Part shown: piece by piece, positions 1,329 to 61,458 of the stretch | Layout of the letters: each line of letters opens with the position of its first letter | How positions within the stretch are numbered: position 1 is the first letter of the stretch | IMG/VR virus record: IMGVR_UViG_3300047553_000365 | Span: 1-64,000 of that record | Reading direction: 5' to 3' (one strand) | From: a virus | Length of the DNA: 64,000 nucleotides | The notes under the pieces: model-generated | Databases searched by the model: none | Seen by the model: the letters and a program-made list of their open reading frames with translations, nothing else | What the model was told of the DNA's origin: nothing | Position numbers and translations under genes: made by a program

Positions 1329-1865
1329 ATGAAAACTTTTATAGAATATTGGTTAATGAGTGAAAATGCAGCACCTAGGTCTTATGCGTGTTTAATGCTA
1401 GACTGTGAAGAATTACTACCAAAAATTAAAGAAATTCAAAGTAATATTAAGGAATCTGATATATATAATGAAGAAGGTCATGGATTAGAAAAAGAACCAC
1501 ACATTACGGTTCTTTATGGGATTCATGAACAATCCCCACAATTAGTGAAGGATCAAATGGATCTATACCCTGTAACATATACTCTTACTGGATTATCATT
1601 ATTTGAAAATGAAGAATATGATGTGTTAAAATGTTCTGTAGATTCTGAATCTCTACATGCTCTTAATAAACAAGCTAGAGAATTAGAACACACTAATAAT
1701 TACCCAGATTATATACCACATCTCACAATAGCATATTTAAATCCCGGAGAAGGAAAGAAATATTTAAAAATGAAATCACCTATATTTGACAAAGAATTAA
1801 AGTCCGATAGATTCATTTTCTCTGATAAAGACGGAAATCAAACAAAATGGAAAGTTGAAGGATGA
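1329..1865 (+). CDS. 2H phosphoesterase (2'-5' RNA ligase-like)
   Basis: 178 residues. Two H-x-T-x motifs, HITVLYG near residue 58 and HLTIAYL near residue 132, are the paired catalytic motifs of the 2H phosphoesterase fold (LigT, cyclic phosphodiesterases). Family members act on 2'-5' linkages or 2',3'-cyclic phosphates, for example at RNA ends. The gene follows tRNA-Tyr and precedes an S4-domain protein, so a tRNA-end role is plausible but inferred. The N terminus MKTFIEYW resembles the shared leader peptide seen on many proteins here and may mark it for packaging in the capsid. Confidence 0.8.
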   Translation: MKTFIEYWLMSENAAPRSYACLMLDCEELLPKIKEIQSNIKESDIYNEEGHGLEKEPHITVLYGIHEQSPQLVKDQMDLYPVTYTLTGLSLFENEEYDVLKCSVDSESLHALNKQARELEHTNNYPDYIPHLTIAYLNPGEGKKYLKMKSPIFDKELKSDRFIFSDKDGNQTKWKVEG

Positions 1866-2756: not shown

Positions 2757-2828
2757 GCAATGTTCGTCTAACGGCTAAGACAGGAAACTCTAAATCTCTC
2801 AATGCGGGTTCGATTCCCACACATTGCA
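2757..2828 (+). tRNA. tRNA with CTA anticodon (candidate amber reader)
   Basis: Acceptor GCAATGT/ACATTGC is a perfect 7 bp; the D stem is GTCT/AGAC and the T loop TTCGATT. With U33 conserved, the loop CTCTAAA gives anticodon CTA, which reads UAG. The anticodon stem GGAAA/TCTCT has a G-U pair and an A-C mismatch, and the T stem has one C-A mismatch, so the gene may be weak or decayed. CCA is not fully encoded (ACC). Confidence 0.65.
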
Positions 2829-2830
2829 CC

Positions 2831-3463
2831 GTGAACGATAAAGATTTTATAAAAGCAGTCGAAGAATCTAATAATATATCTAATGTTATTAGAAAGATGA
2901 ATAGGTCTGCTGTCGGTAGTAATTTTAAATGGTGTAAGAAGCATATCAAAAGACTCAATCTTGATACTTCACACTGGAAGAAAGAACGTAACCCAATACC
3001 CGAATGTAGAATTCATACAAACGAAGACCTATTTCAAGAAAACTCTTCTATAGCTAGAGGAACAGTAAAGAAAAGAATCATAATTGACAATCTTATAAAA
3101 TATGAATGTAGTAATTGTGGAATCTCAAAATGGAATGGTCAAGATCTAAGTTTAATTCTAGATCATATTAATGGAATATCCAACGATCATAGATTAGAAA
3201 ATCTTAGATTTTTATGTCCTAATTGTAACTCACAAACTTCTACGTTTTCTGGTAGAAATAAAAAGAATACCCTAGATGATTATTCATGTAATTCCAAACA
3301 CAAATCTAAATCATTGCCACAAAAATTTAAAATAGAAGATGATTACCTTCTATCATTGGTCGATTTTAATAAAATATCTTTTACAAAAATTGCCAAAGAA
3401 TATAATGTATCTGATACTACAGTAAGAAAAAGATATAATAAAATTAAAGCCGAAGTCGAATAA
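2831..3463 (+). CDS. HNH endonuclease with helix-turn-helix ends
   Basis: 210 residues from a GTG start 2 bases after the tRNA. A CSNC pair, LDHINGISNDHR and CPNCN form the HNH/zinc site around residues 95-135. The N-terminal part (VIRKMNRSAVGSNFKWCKKHIK) and the C-terminal part (FTKIAKEYNVSDTTVRKRYN) look like helix-turn-helix DNA-binding units. It is probably a free-standing homing endonuclease spreading at a tRNA locus. Confidence 0.85.
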   Translation: MNDKDFIKAVEESNNISNVIRKMNRSAVGSNFKWCKKHIKRLNLDTSHWKKERNPIPECRIHTNEDLFQENSSIARGTVKKRIIIDNLIKYECSNCGISKWNGQDLSLILDHINGISNDHRLENLRFLCPNCNSQTSTFSGRNKKNTLDDYSCNSKHKSKSLPQKFKIEDDYLLSLVDFNKISFTKIAKEYNVSDTTVRKRYNKIKAEVE

Positions 3464-3785: not shown

Positions 3786-4334
3786 ATGATAACTAAAGAA
3801 GAAGTATACAAGTTGAAGAGTAAAGATATTCTTAAAAGAGATTATGATAAAATCATAGATAAAATTTCTAGGAGAACTCAAGAAGTTTGGGAATATATAT
3901 GTTTTTTGCAGAATAGAACTATGGATTGGTGGGCATTTTCAAATGATGTGGAATATGCTGACGGAGACGGATCGAGTGGTGGAAATTTTGATGTAAAGAA
4001 CGATTTTAAGTATATTTCAATTGGTGGAGAGAATAGTCCGGGTTACTATTCAAAGGCTGGATGGTCATTGGAATCTCGTAAGTATACATATGAGTATGGG
4101 TTTCCCACAGAACTTCTTTGGGATAAAAACTGGAAGAAGACTATTCAAAAATTTGTTGACGAAGAAAGAAATATCATCGAAAATTATAATAAGAAAGAGA
4201 AAGATAAGAAACTGACTAAAAAAGAAAAAAGACAAAAACTGGCAGAGAATATTCGTAGTAAATTGACAAGAGATGAAATTAAATTTATTATGACCAAGTT
4301 CACAAAGGCAGAAGAAAAAATACTGCTTAGTTGA
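3786..4334 (+). CDS. Hypothetical protein with basic coiled C terminus
   Basis: 182 residues, not recognised. The middle (residues 45-110) is rich in Gly, Ser and aromatics (YADGDGSSGGNFDV, SPGYYSKAGWS). The last third is a charged helix (KKEKDKKLTKKEKRQK). Tandem arrangement with the previous ORF suggests cotranscription. Confidence 0.75.
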   Translation: MITKEEVYKLKSKDILKRDYDKIIDKISRRTQEVWEYICFLQNRTMDWWAFSNDVEYADGDGSSGGNFDVKNDFKYISIGGENSPGYYSKAGWSLESRKYTYEYGFPTELLWDKNWKKTIQKFVDEERNIIENYNKKEKDKKLTKKEKRQKLAENIRSKLTRDEIKFIMTKFTKAEEKILLS

Positions 4335-4727: not shown

Positions 4728-4800
4728 TCCCAAGTAGCTCAGTGGCAGAAGCGTCTGACTGTTAATCAGAATGTCGTAGGTTCGACCCCTACCTTGGGAG
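4728..4800 (+). tRNA. tRNA-Asn(GTT)
   Basis: Acceptor TCCCAAG/CTTGGGA, discriminator G, anticodon arm CTGACTGTTAATCAG, T arm GTAGG-TTCGACC-CCTAC. CCA is not encoded. Confidence 0.95.
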
Positions 4801-4874
4801 CAGGTTGTCGGTAATGAGCAACGATGTATGAAATAAATCGTTATAATGTTGGTCACATTTAAAAATGACCACTA

Positions 4875-4948
4875 CGGAATATTGCGTAATCTGGTATCGC
4901 GCTTGCTTTGGGAGCAAGAGACTTTGGGTTCGAATCCCAATATTCCGA
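4875..4948 (+). tRNA. tRNA-Pro(TGG)
   Basis: Acceptor CGGAATA/TATTCCG, anticodon arm CTTGC-TTTGGGA-GCAAG, T loop TTCGAAT, discriminator A. A homing endonuclease gene starts 7 bases later. Confidence 0.95.
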
Positions 4949-19918: not shown

Positions 19919-20213
19919 TCTCTGGAAAGAAAGTCTAGCCCTAATTGGGTGCTGTTTCATAATTAAATACGGAACAATTTTAGACTTCATAAGGAAACCA
20001 CTAAAGAAACTAAAATTTTTTAACGAATTATTATCATGTTCACTCTGTATAGGCTTTCACGTTGGATTTTGGAAAGTGATTCTGTTTGGGAATCACTCAA
20101 TGCCGGATGCATTATTCTTAGCATTCTATTCTTCCTCAATATGTTGGCTGGCTGACCATCTAGTAGATGTCATGCAAACCTTCATTTATGGTCGTGATAA
20201 GAACGATCAATAA
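19911..20213 (+). CDS. DUF1360-like membrane protein
   Basis: 100 residues from TTG 19911. NELLSCSLCIGFHVGFW matches the LLxCxxCxGFW motif of DUF1360, flanked by hydrophobic helices. Function unknown. Its end overlaps the end of the convergent CCA-adding enzyme gene. Confidence 0.65.
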   Translation: MADLWKESLALIGCCFIIKYGTILDFIRKPLKKLKFFNELLSCSLCIGFHVGFWKVILFGNHSMPDALFLAFYSSSICWLADHLVDVMQTFIYGRDKNDQ

Positions 20214-21687
20214 TCTGTTTAGCTTTTCTAAACACATCATTCTCAGTCACAGTTTTACCACTGAGTAACATATCAGCAACCCAATCTTGGAGTTTTGGTA
20301 AGTAGATACCAAGTTGCTTTCTATCCTGATTAAACTTCGGAAACATTTCCATCAGTTTATTACCGTTGATAATAGCGGACACCTGTTTCTTTAATTCGTC
20401 TGCACCACCGGGAACAGTATTAAGTTTTGCTTCTGCTCTCTCAATCCTTTCCTTAAATTCTTGTGGATTAAACATTGATGGTCCTCTGGATGCTTCATCA
20501 CAAAAGGCTACGGACTTCACAACATTCCAAGAAGGATCGTGAATCAGTTTTCTTAATGTCTTAAGATTTAACTTATCCAGATCATGAACTAACATATGCT
20601 TTGCCACAGCAGAAAGAATATCCTTCTTCTCTTGTGGTCCAAGATTATTAAACTTCAATCTGTTAAAGATGTTTTGAACGATGGGAACTCCCGCAGCTTC
20701 ATGTCCATGATAGTTGCTAAATCCTCTCTTATTAGTTCCTCTAGTAGTTGCCTTACCGAAATCGTGAAAGAGGACTGCTAGATTTATAATAGGGTCTTTA
20801 AATGGAGATGCCTTAAGACATTCATGAATATGACCCAACACTTGTGATTCCCCTTCAGGATGATGTTGTGGATCATGATCGAATCCTCTCATACTGGTAA
20901 ACTCTGGTAGAATATCGTCAAGAATACCAGCTTCATCCAATTTGGATAGAAAGTTTGATAGAGTTTTTCCCGACTTAGCTGCCTTATAGAACTCCTGTGC
21001 AATACTCTCCATAGAGATTAACTTAGGATCTAGTAACAATCCCTTCAGTTCCTTTGCAGCATTTAGAGTATTCTGCTCAATATCGAATCCCATCTTTGCA
21101 GCAAATCTAAAGACTCTCAGAAGCCTTGTGGCATCTTCCTTGAATCTCTCTTTGGGATTGCCAACTGCTCTGACAACTTTGTTCTTAAGATCCTCTAGAC
21201 CACCCTGATAGTCCACAATTCTACCATTAGAATCCAGACCAAAACTATTAATAGTTATGTCTCGTCTTTTAGTATCAGTTTCAAAGTCATTTACTTCCGT
21301 GGATACATTTGCCTGTCTACCCATTTCGGTTTGAGAATCCTCTCTAAACTTAGCTAGGTCAAAGGCATACTCTCCAAAGATGATCTTGAAAACTGGTTGA
21401 GAATCGTTCTTGGAGATGTTTCTTAGTTCAAAGTGCTTTGATAAGTCCTCAAAGGGAATATTGGTCGCCATGTCCACATCATCAATGGGATCACCCATCA
21501 AAAGATCCCTAGGAACACCCCCCACAATATAGATCTCCCCCCTAGGAAAAAGACCGTTAATCTTCTTCATAAGGGCTAATCCGACCCGTAATTCCTCAGA
21601 ATTTTGTAGGGCTTTCTCCCATTTGTCCGAAAAGTCGTCAATATTATAATTGACGCTTTCGGTAAAGAATTTCAGAAACGACTTCAT
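20182..21687 (-). CDS. cca: CCA-adding enzyme / tRNA nucleotidyltransferase
   Basis: 501 residues. The class II nucleotidyltransferase head is clear: IYIVGGVPRDLLMG (GG motif), DDVDMATN (catalytic Asp pair), KRRDITINSF and later RLLRVFRFA. A C-terminal HD domain follows (AVLFHDFGKATTRG). It adds or repairs 3' CCA on tRNAs; most tRNA genes here lack encoded CCA, so it would complete them. The N terminus MKSFLKFFTES resembles the capsid-targeting-like leader on neighbouring proteins, so the enzyme may be packaged and injected; that is inference. Confidence 0.88.
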   Translation of the reverse strand: MKSFLKFFTESVNYNIDDFSDKWEKALQNSEELRVGLALMKKINGLFPRGEIYIVGGVPRDLLMGDPIDDVDMATNIPFEDLSKHFELRNISKNDSQPVFKIIFGEYAFDLAKFREDSQTEMGRQANVSTEVNDFETDTKRRDITINSFGLDSNGRIVDYQGGLEDLKNKVVRAVGNPKERFKEDATRLLRVFRFAAKMGFDIEQNTLNAAKELKGLLLDPKLISMESIAQEFYKAAKSGKTLSNFLSKLDEAGILDDILPEFTSMRGFDHDPQHHPEGESQVLGHIHECLKASPFKDPIINLAVLFHDFGKATTRGTNKRGFSNYHGHEAAGVPIVQNIFNRLKFNNLGPQEKKDILSAVAKHMLVHDLDKLNLKTLRKLIHDPSWNVVKSVAFCDEASRGPSMFNPQEFKERIERAEAKLNTVPGGADELKKQVSAIINGNKLMEMFPKFNQDRKQLGIYLPKLQDWVADMLLSGKTVTENDVFRKAKQIIDRSYHDHK

Positions 21688-50502: not shown

Positions 50503-50835
50503 TTACATTTTCTGTAAAACTTCCCGAACCCTTTCCGCAGCTTCCAACTTAAAATTAACCCCATCTTCAAAATCAATAAACCAATCCAACAAAAACAATT
50601 CAACTGCTTGAAACATGGCCAAAGAATCAAGATCAGTAGAGAAACAACAAAAGCCACCATTACCATATTGCGCTCCAATTTCTGCCAATTTATGTTCGCA
50701 GTCTCCTCTACGAATAATGTAAACATTAGAAGGATCAACATCCCACAAAATCCCCAACAATTTCTTTAGGGCATCTTCTGGTTGATAATTTTTATATTGT
50801 TCAACAAAATTATTCATATTAGTTGTAGTTTTCAT
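50503..50835 (-). CDS. Hypothetical protein
   Basis: 110 residues, alpha/beta. Leaderless start. Resembles a SMI1/KNR4-like small domain only loosely. Confidence 0.65.
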   Translation of the reverse strand: MKTTTNMNNFVEQYKNYQPEDALKKLLGILWDVDPSNVYIIRRGDCEHKLAEIGAQYGNGGFCCFSTDLDSLAMFQAVELFLLDWFIDFEDGVNFKLEAAERVREVLQKM

Positions 50836-50861
50836 AGTCTTATTGTATCCCGGTTTTAATT
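50836..50861 (-). promoter_or_regulatory. Compact AATTAAAACC promoter
   Basis: AATTAAAACC, GGGA, TACAAT, 6 bases, ATG 50835. Confidence 0.85.
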
Positions 50862-50868
50862 ACTTAAG

Positions 50869-50943
50869 TGGTGTTACATATTGGAATCGAACCAATCACC
50901 CGTCAGTTATAAACCAACCGCTCTACCAATGAGCTAATGTAAC
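50869..50943 (-). tRNA. tRNA-Ile(TAT)
   Basis: Acceptor GTTACAT/ATGTAAC, D arm GCTC...GAGC, anticodon arm GTTGG-TTTATAA-CTGAC giving TAT, T arm ATTGG-TTCGATT-CCAAT, CCA encoded. A UAU anticodon reads AUA without needing lysidine, useful in an AT-rich phage. Confidence 0.9.
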
Positions 50944-50957
50944 ATTTATTATTACAG

Positions 50958-51086
50958 TGGCATGGGTGGGAATCGAACCCACACGCCCTAAACGGGCAAC
51001 GGATTTTGACGATTAATATAATATTGTTTCAACTATATTAATCGGTTTAAAAAGTCCGTAGCGTCTACCAATTCCGCCACCATGCC
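50958..51086 (-). tRNA. tRNA-Leu with a 44-base anticodon-loop insertion
   Basis: Acceptor GGCATGG/CCATGCC, Leu-type D arm (GGCGGAATTGGTAGACGC), class II variable arm GCCCGTTTAGGGC and T arm GTGGG-TTCGATT-CCCAC are all intact. The anticodon stem ACGGA/TCCGT is split by an insertion (about 51009-51052) containing an 11-bp hairpin CGATTAATATA/TATATTAATCG. Removal after U33 gives CAA, removal after U34 gives TAA; both are Leu. No group I core is visible. Confidence 0.8.
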
Positions 51087-51097
51087 ATTAACTCTAT

Positions 51098-51253
51098 TTA
51101 GTCTGCCTCATCTACAATGAAGACAGAAGCATAAGATTGAGTCTTAGGGTCTTCATAGCTTACACCATAGGCAGGATTGCAATCCTTAAGGGCAGCACAG
51201 TTACTAAGAGTAATTGCACCAATCATAATTCCAATATATTTCAACGTTTTCAT
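51098..51253 (-). CDS. Small lipoprotein
   Basis: 51 residues with a signal peptide ending in a lipobox (ITLSNC). Likely exported and lipid-anchored in the host envelope; could be a superinfection-exclusion lipoprotein by analogy, which is speculation. Confidence 0.6.
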   Translation of the reverse strand: MKTLKYIGIMIGAITLSNCAALKDCNPAYGVSYEDPKTQSYASVFIVDEAD

Positions 51254-51265
51254 ATTTATTTTATT

Positions 51266-51445
51266 TTAGCAGTTATACCATTTATTACAACATTTACATT
51301 TAAAAGTTCCTCCAAATACAGGGTGTGCAGACTCCATAATATGTTTACCAGTTTTAGTAACTTCACACACTGTATTGATTTGTCGGCTAGAAGTAGGATT
51401 GAACATACTTAGAATAATTTCACCAATGAGTTTCAATATTTTCAT
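51266..51445 (-). CDS. Small cysteine-rich hypothetical protein
   Basis: 59 residues; N terminus MKILKLIGEIILSMF resembles that of the lipoprotein gene, then CKCCNKWYNC at the end (zinc or disulfide). Unknown. Confidence 0.5.
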   Translation of the reverse strand: MKILKLIGEIILSMFNPTSSRQINTVCEVTKTGKHIMESAHPVFGGTFKCKCCNKWYNC

Positions 51446-58967: not shown

Positions 58968-60620
58968 TTAAACTTCGACCATGTTTAGAATCTCTTGGTC
59001 AAGAGCTTCTTCCATGAGTTCGTAAGTGGTCTTAATCTTGCCGCTAAGGAAAGAGATAACGGATGCAGAGTATCCACCGAAGTAATACACATTAAGCGCA
59101 TTCTTACCAGTTTCAAACTTCTCACCAGTTCCCTTACCATAGTAGTTACTTTGGAGATTCCAAAGAACGATTACAAATTCATCAACATATTCCTTAGAGA
59201 ATCCTGCATTTCTAAGAGTAGTGCGAGCAGCATCCACATTAGTCTTATTCAAACTAGCAGGATTAAACTCACTATCACTAATGCACAGAATTCCACGGGG
59301 GAAATCAGATTCGGGAGTTCCTTGTTTCTTCATCTTGCAGAACAAGTTAATAACACTTTGGAAGTTGGTTGAACCAACAAATCCTGACTTATCATTCTTC
59401 CACTTGGAAGTAGGAGAATGACCATTCCACTTGTGAAGCTTTGCATCAGAATTGAATTCAATCCAATGTCCTGCGAAAGTTCCAGTAAGGAATTCACTAA
59501 AGTAAAGAGCAAGAGCCTTACCAATATCATAGCAAGTAGACTTAGTTCCAGTAGCAATGCTACCCATAGAACCAGAAGTGTCACGCACCACGATTAGGTT
59601 GGTATAGTTTTCACCTGCCTTAGCCTTATCAACAAGAGTTTGAAACTGCTTATCAATAGTAAGTTCCTTGTTAGAATCCCCTTGCCAATGACCTTCAAAG
59701 AGTTCATGGACAAATCCAGTATACTTAACAGCAGTAGTCTCAGGCTTCTTAATCCATTCAGAATACTTCTCACTAAGACCTTGATTCTTAAGGAACTTGC
59801 TCTTAACAAGAATCGACAATGCACGACCATGAATCTTACTAAAGTCGATATCCTTAAACTTACCTTGTGAGATAAGCTTTTGCCAATCGTGTGCAGATCC
59901 ACTAGTCTTAAGCTTACGATACTTCTTGTAGTTAGCAGGAGAAGTCTTGCTTCCAAACAGTAGATAACAAATCCACTTAGCAATTTGATTATTAGACTGT
60001 GCATCCACAGTAGTAGCTTGAGACTTAGCCTTGATTTGTGGAAGATACTTCTTCACAAGATCGCAGGTCTTATCATTATTAAGTGCAGCCAGAATCAGTT
60101 CACCAAACTTATCCCAATCCAATTGACGGTTTTCCCATCCATTGTAACTAAGATCATATTGCAGCATGGTAAACACATCATGCCATGAACCCACAGAAAC
60201 AAACAGCAGAATGTTATTCCAGAAAGAATCAGGAGAAACAGTGTGCAGCCAAATCATACGCATGATAGCTTCATGCTTAAGTTCAGTTCCAAGTTGAGGA
60301 TTCTTAGTCTTACTACCATCAGGCAGACTAACAATACGAGGAATGGTTCTAAGGAACAAAGTAAACTTTACTGCCTTAAGAGGATCTTCACCCCAAAGAG
60401 TAGATGCATCAGCAGCAATCTCAGAAAACTTGCGGGGAGTCTTGTAATTACCAGCCTTAGTAAATTGATCGACTAGCGTAGAGCCTGAAGATTTAAACTT
60501 CAATGCTCCATTACCAGAACGAGTCTTATTCGATTCTGCATTGGCATTAGCAAGAAACTCATTAACTTTTTTACGAGTCACTTTACGCACGGTTTCGGCT
60601 TGTCTTTTATTCTCAAACAT
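58968..60620 (-). CDS. Ro60/TROVE-DUF2828-like protein with vWA domain
   Basis: 550 residues. A helical-repeat N-terminal two thirds (AVKFTLFLRTIPRI, LLFVSVGSWHDVFTML) is followed by a von Willebrand A domain with an intact MIDAS motif, VVRDTSGSMGS, and LCISDSEFNP later. This layout is shared by DUF2828 proteins and the TROVE ring protein Ro60, which binds Y RNAs and defective RNAs. The tRNA-like RNA array follows it and a Thg1-like gene precedes it. Which of the two families is closer needs a profile search. Confidence 0.75.
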   Translation of the reverse strand: MFENKRQAETVRKVTRKKVNEFLANANAESNKTRSGNGALKFKSSGSTLVDQFTKAGNYKTPRKFSEIAADASTLWGEDPLKAVKFTLFLRTIPRIVSLPDGSKTKNPQLGTELKHEAIMRMIWLHTVSPDSFWNNILLFVSVGSWHDVFTMLQYDLSYNGWENRQLDWDKFGELILAALNNDKTCDLVKKYLPQIKAKSQATTVDAQSNNQIAKWICYLLFGSKTSPANYKKYRKLKTSGSAHDWQKLISQGKFKDIDFSKIHGRALSILVKSKFLKNQGLSEKYSEWIKKPETTAVKYTGFVHELFEGHWQGDSNKELTIDKQFQTLVDKAKAGENYTNLIVVRDTSGSMGSIATGTKSTCYDIGKALALYFSEFLTGTFAGHWIEFNSDAKLHKWNGHSPTSKWKNDKSGFVGSTNFQSVINLFCKMKKQGTPESDFPRGILCISDSEFNPASLNKTNVDAARTTLRNAGFSKEYVDEFVIVLWNLQSNYYGKGTGEKFETGKNALNVYYFGGYSASVISFLSGKIKTTYELMEEALDQEILNMVEV

Positions 60621-60717: not shown

Positions 60718-61458
60718 CTAATATAACCATAAATCTTCCTCACTTGTAATAGCACCAAACAAGAAATCATTAATAGAAAGGTAATCAGTTAGGTTATAAT
60801 TATCACCTTTAGTTGGCGACCACCATGACCCATTTCTTTGTTGGTCAGAGCATTCATCCTCCCAACTGTGTCCAATCTTTTTAAGCATTTCTTTTTGATC
60901 TGCTCTACCTTGTCCATGTAATTCTTTAGGAGAAAAATGAGACAGGCAAAACATAGAGATACTATTTCTTTCCCAATCCTTAACTCTCCATAGAAAGACA
61001 TTGGCAACATCTTCTTTCGGACATTGAAATGCTCTAGCATCAAACACAGCAGGATTATATGATCCGATATTAAATCTACCATTATCCCAATTCAAACATG
61101 TCCAAGTTTTATTGAAGTAGGCAGTCATTAGTGCAGCAGTAACAGATTCAATCTTATTCTGTCTACCACCGAACCATTGTTGAGTTTCAATACTACCACT
61201 ATCATCCAACACAAAAGTTACTTCATCACTTTGAACATACAATCCTTTACAGTTTTGCATTTCCTTAGCAACATACTTAGCAGAAATAAACATAGCATTG
61301 ATTAACTTCGTATCAAAAGGTTTATCGCAACCTTTAGTCCAAGTATGAAATGCCTTACCATCTACTCTAACAAGGATAGGAACCTTGGGAGTAAAGTAAT
61401 GTTCACTGATAGATTCGTAGTGTTTGATTCTATCACCTAATGTATCTTTGCTATTCAT
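60718..61458 (-). CDS. Thg1-like 3'-5' RNA polymerase (TLP)
   Basis: 246 residues. VPILVRVDGKAFHTWTKG and LYVQSDEVTFVLDD carry the two metal-binding carboxylate motifs (RxDGxxFHxFxK and YxQSDExxFV) of Thg1 family enzymes. Thg1 adds G-1 to tRNA-His; Thg1-like proteins repair 5'-truncated tRNAs by templated 3'-5' addition. The phage tRNA-His lacks encoded G-1, and a tRNA-like RNA lies just upstream of this gene. Ends in TAG followed two codons later by TAA. Confidence 0.88.
   Translation of the reverse strand: MNSKDTLGDRIKHYESISEHYFTPKVPILVRVDGKAFHTWTKGCDKPFDTKLINAMFISAKYVAKEMQNCKGLYVQSDEVTFVLDDSGSIETQQWFGGRQNKIESVTAALMTAYFNKTWTCLNWDNGRFNIGSYNPAVFDARAFQCPKEDVANVFLWRVKDWERNSISMFCLSHFSPKELHGQGRADQKEMLKKIGHSWEDECSDQQRNGSWWSPTKGDNYNLTDYLSINDFLFGAITSEEDLWLY

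Follow-up and report, generated by a model that had tools for sequence, protein, structure and literature searches.

A tRNA-Leu(UAA) gene with a 44-nt hairpin insert in its anticodon loop in a tailed phage, and similar inserts in tRNA genes of other phages

We observe on the minus strand of the window (the whole 64,000-base stretch analyzed here, taken from the start of a viral contig of 138,655 bases) a complete tRNA-Leu gene at 51086-50958 whose anticodon loop is interrupted by a 44-nt hairpin insert. The insert probably must be excised and the ends rejoined, most likely by the phage's own RNA ligase. The unspliced gene could not decode, yet its exons keep the full anatomy of a leucine tRNA across many phages, which makes excision at the RNA level the simplest reading.

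The interrupted gene and its surroundings

The first-pass annotation of this DNA, made from the sequence alone, had described a tRNA-Leu split by a 44-base insertion in the anticodon loop, and this description is borne out: the Rfam tRNA model matches 51086-50958 from end to end once a long insertion is allowed for (47.0 bits against a cut-off of 29, E = 6.6e-7), and ARAGORN, which misses the gene when run without introns, finds it when introns are allowed, placing 44 nt in the anticodon loop and reading the anticodon as CAA (or, under one of the four option sets, as Lys). The acceptor, D, anticodon, and T stems all pair, and removal of the insert restores the anticodon arm ACGGA-CUUAAAA-UCCGU with the anticodon UAA, in agreement with the earlier view of four intact arms and a restorable anticodon stem. 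The 5' exon (51052..51086, minus strand) comprises the 5' strand of the acceptor, the D arm, the 5' strand of the anticodon stem, and C32, U33, and U34, and the 3' exon (50958..51007, minus strand) comprises A35 to A38, the 3' strand of the anticodon stem, a long variable arm, the T arm, and the 3' strand of the acceptor, both as delimited by the sequence and the Rfam match.

Between U34 and A35 lies the insert (51008..51051, minus strand; placed by ARAGORN, its fold, and the choice of boundaries), which consists of a 7-nt leader (51051-51045), a 13-bp hairpin with a 9-nt loop (5' arm at 51032..51044, 3' arm at 51010..51022), and a 2-nt tail (51009-51008), so that the hairpin stops short of the splice sites. 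Its fold of -11.3 kcal/mol is well below that of 300 shuffled sequences (z = -5.41). Insertion after either U33 or U34 had been left open, and both options that keep a 7-nt loop do leave a leucine anticodon (CAA after U33, UAA after U34); cuts further along give a stop-reading or Lys anticodon. The U34|A35 boundary is favored because the last base of the insert in related genes is not always C.

The window belongs to a tailed phage, as indicated by a terminase that matches PHROG terminase families, with Synechococcus phage terminases as its best match (30.1% identity). The standard genetic code fits this phage well, with 214 open reading frames (ORFs) of at least 60 amino acids (aa) that overlap little and cover 90% of the contig (stop codons: 141 TAA, 57 TGA, and 16 TAG). 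A tRNA with a CUA anticodon at 2757-2830 (plus strand; called tRNA-Pyl) is a possible TAG suppressor. UUA and UUG together make up 41% of the leucine codons in ORFs of at least 100 aa, and the only other tRNA-Leu that ARAGORN finds in the window has the anticodon UAG. An uninterrupted tRNA-Ile(UAU) called by ARAGORN is the neighbor of the interrupted gene (50869..50943, minus strand). The window also encodes a CCA-adding enzyme or relative with a poly(A) polymerase head domain (20182..21687, minus strand; PF01743, 3.2e-24) and a Thg1-like tRNA-His guanylyltransferase (60718..61458, minus strand; phrog_4717, 4.5e-71; PF04446, 9.3e-28).

With respect to the idea that one mechanism might serve both the insert and a module of permuted tRNA-like elements (module 3 of the first-pass annotation), the modules turn out to resemble YrlA Y RNAs, and the evidence does not support a mechanism common to them and the tRNA intron. 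The modules (approximately 58640-58205, minus strand) lie in a hairpin array at 58820-58205 (minus strand) with CAGCAA and TGATAA motifs, in which, on manual reading, three hairpins enclose a T arm, an acceptor, and a D arm in permuted order. For one module the best Rfam match is YrlA, which at 28.5 bits (E = 9e-4) falls short of the 69 required for that family. Since the Rfam YrlA consensus itself puts the T-arm-like before the D-arm-like part, the permuted order is the normal architecture and needs no splicing. The adjacent gene (58968-60620, minus strand) matches DUF7788, and its protein matches no solved structure by sequence; the single-sequence fold is poor (pLDDT 38.1), and a model built from nine homologues reaches a pLDDT of 74.3. 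Foldseek searches with this model retrieve a TROVE domain (E = 3.2e-8, TM-scores 0.48/0.55), the Ro60 protein from Thermus phage phiLo (2.5e-7), and Ro60 proteins of animals (1.7e-5 at best), TM-scores over these matches ranging from about 0.3 to 0.55. Distant homologues occur in five other genomes (G007, G016, G017, G025, and G028). In G007, G016, and G028 no YrlA match lies close to the Ro-like gene, which speaks against the Y RNA reading. The modules are thus best read, from sequence match and predicted structure, as Y-RNA-like elements beside a putative Ro60/TROVE-like gene.

Similar inserts in other phages

A pattern for tRNA-Leu with a gap of 25 to 55 nt matched 47 stretches of viral contigs, 22 of which proved in a structural check to be complete tRNA-Leu(UAA) genes with a 26- to 50-nt insert at 34|35, a constancy of position that is partly built in because the pattern fixes CUU|...|AAAA. 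The copy in the window (L001) is one more on top of these, and the Leu cases contain 15 distinct insert sequences by manual count. The structural check was failed by the other 25 stretches, including two truncated at the stretch end that later turned out to be such genes too (L063, which is the G029 stretch, and L037, whose 3' part falls outside the sequence examined). An earlier pattern had returned a single stretch, a false match in which a tRNA start precedes a complete tRNA-Leu, and another candidate (L411) is not a tRNA. Later scans and fetched stretches yielded further Leu cases (G029, L037, L386, L406, and L409), Lys cases in G029/L248 and Agrobacterium phage Atu_ph07, and Asn cases in G029, L249, L288 (3' part cut), Atu_ph07, and Salicola phage SCTP-2. 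The first Lys and Asn cases (G029) were ARAGORN calls, obtained with no pattern for those isotypes, and have their insert between positions 35 and 36. Over 25 genes with 21 different anticodon stems, 120 of 125 anticodon-stem pairs are formed, the Leu finder having demanded at least 4 of 5 beforehand.

The window's insert sequence was found in one genome only, and three Leu genes used as queries against annotated phages gave no match at E = 1e-5. A relative of the window phage with an 80% identical terminase (G002) has a tRNA-Leu(UAA) without an insert; the exons of the two genes differ so much that they are comparable tRNAs rather than proven orthologues. In bacterial genomes the pattern matched at least 119 stretches, three of which were flagged by the structural finder and proved false on reading of the inserts (a tandem partial copy, L126; a run of N, L177; and a second tRNA start, L167); such inserts may still occur in bacteria.

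The inserts fall into three classes. In the first, which is tRNA-like, an acceptor stem starts at the first insert base and is joined by a T arm and a tail of 4 nt. When scored against a template of this layout (7-bp acceptor from base 1, T arm of 5 bp and 7 nt, 4-nt tail) that was devised after the inserts had been seen, all five Asn inserts and seven Leu inserts (L027, L029, L030, L046, L047, L053, and L056, with L029, L053, and L056 near-identical) reach a fit equaled by only 0 to 2 of 1,000 shuffles. The two Lys inserts are weaker (75 and 46 of 1,000 shuffles equal), and the window insert does not follow the template, with 4 of 7 acceptor pairs and 4 of 5 T-arm pairs (75 of 1,000 shuffles equal). 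For the Asn inserts (n = 5) the fold is also apparent from covariation: 98.2% of cells are paired, 10 of 11 pairs have changed on both sides, and none of 500 shuffles does as well. The second class, hairpins with a YUACRG motif, comprises six close relatives together with L026 and the Leu insert of G029; among the six, no more than 2 of 10 pairs covary, a result equaled by 17 of 500 shuffles. The remaining class holds the window hairpin, L028, L035, L048, the inserts of CAU tRNAs, and the 74- to 80-nt inserts of L386/L406, and includes two inserts that fold no better than chance (L035, z = -0.57; L048, z = 0.01).

Several inserts lie in tRNAs of other kinds. In L386, a tRNA-Tyr by manual reading (3990-4145) and a tRNA-Leu (4777-4942) have inserts of 74 and 80 nt with a shared hairpin stretch, GAAUAAAC. 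CAU tRNAs, again read manually, have hairpin inserts of 27 or 33 nt at L218 5010 and 5373 (G008) and at L415 4108-4214 (Atu_ph07; named Ser(UGA) by ARAGORN), and one odd tRNA has a 44-nt insert. HNH-type endonuclease genes lie within 70 nt of interrupted tRNAs in three stretches (L414 4282-5010, L029 4139-4765, and L048 10713-11177), the match being above the cut-off beside the Atu_ph07 tRNA-Lys and below it beside L029 and L048. Genes beside the interrupted tRNAs of L046, L031, and L415 gave no HNH match, though that of L415 is annotated as HNH. In the window, no HNH gene was recognized beside the interrupted tRNA-Leu, and an HNH gene at 2831-3463 adjoins an uninterrupted tRNA.

Two of the phages are isolates. 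Stretch L293 is Atu_ph07 (100% identical over 2,001 bases), in which the finder and an alignment with the other Asn cases place an interrupted tRNA-Asn at 323905-324023 (minus strand) with a 46-nt tRNA-like insert. ARAGORN alone reads this gene as a tRNA-Tyr with a 26-nt intron, a reading that the 5-base variable region and the existence of a separate tRNA-Tyr speak against. The Atu_ph07 record has no annotated tRNA feature whatever in this stretch, and the paper on this phage reports tRNA-Asn as absent, so the interrupted gene would likely supply the missing tRNA. No interrupted tRNA-Thr was found in Atu_ph07 between 285 and 331.5 kb or in two other scanned stretches. A gene of this kind is also present in SCTP-2, where ARAGORN calls it tRNA-Asn.

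RNA ligases and possible routes of excision

RtcB or a T4-type RNA ligase had been suggested at the outset as joining enzymes, and it is the latter that we find: the contig encodes a T4 Rnl1 homologue at contig positions 75353-76435 (PF09511, 1.8e-17; RNA ligase 1 structures, 2e-16), in which the KxDG motif is aligned and kept, and a second RNA ligase at contig positions 87067-88425 (PF09414, 1.4e-11, plus an OB domain) that has no solved relative by sequence. RtcB was found in none of 24 records. Among 33 insert-bearing records, PF09511 exceeds the cut-off in 13, PF09414 in 11, and either in 18, counts that are not independent since several records share identical inserts. Ten of the 11 insert-bearing records with a length of 100 kb or more carry one ligase or the other, the exception being G036 (112 kb); neither is seen in 14 shorter records. 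In 10 contigs with an uninterrupted tRNA-Leu(UAA), PF09511 was found in none, in a run without a positive anywhere; only five of these contigs reach 30 kb, and the comparison covers PF09511 and the tRNA-Leu(UAA) genes alone. Two relatives (G002 and G009) carry Rnl1 with an uninterrupted tRNA-Leu(UAA), so the ligase is not specific to interrupted genes, and the association of ligases with inserts in these gene counts is suggestive only.

ARAGORN proposes inserts in other tRNAs of G002 and G009. In G009 the candidates are a tRNA-Asn with a 13-nt insert and a tRNA-Ile with a 109-nt insert (L025 7957-8054 and 14006-14202). An 88-nt ARAGORN intron in G002 (L021 3516-3700) was judged to be a different thing, an odd tRNA-Ser-like gene; its insert of roughly 90 nt contains a short ORF, and the gene might be tmRNA-like.

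We favor, with moderate confidence, a tRNA-Leu(UAA) precursor whose 44-nt hairpin intron at U34|A35 is cut out by a nuclease and whose exons are sealed by an ATP-dependent phage RNA ligase. If the gene is transcribed, the anticodon stem of the folded tRNA would keep the two exons together, a nuclease would cut at the base of the hairpin region and release the insert, and the ligase would join U34 to A35, the T4 Rnl1 homologue being the best candidate for this step. A putative 2H phosphoesterase (1329..1865, plus strand; PF13563, 1.1e-8; PF23474, 4.1e-8) could possibly open 2',3'-cyclic phosphate RNA ends and resembles the anti-CBASS protein Acb1 too. A motif scan for Pnkp in the window phage gave just a 134-aa AAA_33 kinase (27.8 bits, cut-off 27); a full PNKP occurs in G008.

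A special form of this ligase proposal, which we put forward tentatively and as the less probable course, reads the introns themselves as tRNAs, with RNase P cutting at the first intron base and a 3'-processing nuclease after the fourth base of the tail; the resulting 3'-OH and 5'-phosphate ends would be directly sealable by a ligase. The boundaries of the tRNA-like inserts, at tRNA base 1 and base 76, suggest these two activities. This reading accounts for the close template fit of the Asn and the seven Leu inserts, for which other tail lengths do worse (except in the L029 type, where one equals), and for the tail ACCA in four Leu inserts (L027 with a one-base shift). It is at odds with the tails AAAG, ACAG, and CCGT, which differ from CCA, with the usual cleavage by RNase Z behind base 73 instead of base 76, and with the poor fit of both Lys inserts and the window insert, so that it covers the tRNA-like class and reaches the window hairpin only by extension. 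As a rather speculative generalization, large phages might use tRNA-imitating introns that are cut by host RNase P at the 5' end and by a 3' nuclease at base 76 and sealed by the phage ligase, with simple hairpins like that of the window as a reduced form.

We consider it improbable that the insert serves to shield the anticodon loop against anticodon nucleases of the host, or that the RNA acts as bait, with splicing secondary or absent. The inserts are located in the part of the loop that such nucleases attack, and jumbo phages carry tRNA-repair sets thought to counter them (PMC7824862); an unspliced tRNA would not decode, however, and yet tRNA-Leu anatomy is kept in many phages, and Atu_ph07 would be left without tRNA-Asn. 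Self-splicing by a small ribozyme of a new type is very unlikely: inserts of one class do share sequence (the YUACRG start) across different exons, and those of L386/L406 reach 74 to 80 nt with parts in common, but 26 to 44 nt is very short, the different classes look unrelated, and the three stretches scanned contain no Rfam ribozyme or group I match. Equally hard to uphold is a decayed gene struck by a hairpin insertion, which the restriction of the insert sequence to one genome and the insert-free relative G002 would allow, and against which stand the four intact arms and the many other contigs with an insert of like type at the same site, these many related intact cases making decay unlikely.

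Comparison with known systems

Short introns in the tRNAs of large phages, some of them tRNA-like, have already been published, and the window gene is a further case of this reported, unexplained kind. Devoto et al. (2019; PMC6784885), in the sections available, describe tRNA introns in Lak phages, which they believe to be the first reported for any phage, and note that one may encode a tRNA; the available text of PMC13037316 (2026) gives tRNA introns in 262 (77.06%) alternative-code jumbo phages, and that of PMC8346664 mentions phage tRNA introns too. As here, the introns of PMC6784885 and PMC13037316 are short, occur in some relatives but not in others, and in some cases may encode a tRNA, and the window insert likewise sits in a phage anticodon loop, with none in the comparable tRNA of G002. 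Those phages are about 540 kb or jumbo and use an alternative code, whereas the contig here measures 138.7 kb and reads well with the standard code, and the likeness is one of description. No splicing mechanism for phage tRNA introns was found in the open-licence literature, including the available sections of PMC6784885 and PMC13037316. The present analysis adds the tRNA-like insert boundaries, the covariation among the Asn inserts, the count of ligases, and two isolates, Atu_ph07 and SCTP-2, with which the question can be tested. Furthermore, tRNA counts of large phages obtained under bacterial settings would be too low, the tRNA-Asn of Atu_ph07 being a likely case.

The group I intron of cyanobacteria and plastids lies in the same tRNA-Leu(UAA), at what we presume to be the same site within the anticodon. 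The insert here has only 44 nt, and the first-pass view that it is no group I intron stands: at a permissive threshold (E up to 5) the group I core (RF00028) has no match in 50700-51400. The same model does match elsewhere, at L196 1769-2014 of G007 (95.4 bits), by its flanks probably within a protein gene. According to the accessible part of a 2014 review (PMC3984707), phage group I introns were known in protein genes only.

Archaeal and eukaryal tRNA introns, which have a BHB motif and a splicing endonuclease, are likewise short hairpins in the anticodon loop for which protein-dependent joining is expected. They usually sit one base 3' of the anticodon, in the available text of PMC4090602; the window insert is not at this 37|38 position but within the anticodon, at 34|35. 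If the inserts are spliced, phages have protein-based tRNA splicing. To our knowledge, bacteria are generally held to have none.

With the T4 Pnkp/Rnl1 tRNA repair system the window phage shares an Rnl1 homologue with its KxDG motif. In T4, a break in the anticodon loop is sealed by Rnl1; this repair mends breaks, and no insert is removed. Should the proposal made here be true, T4-type RNA ligases, known for repair, would also be splicing enzymes.
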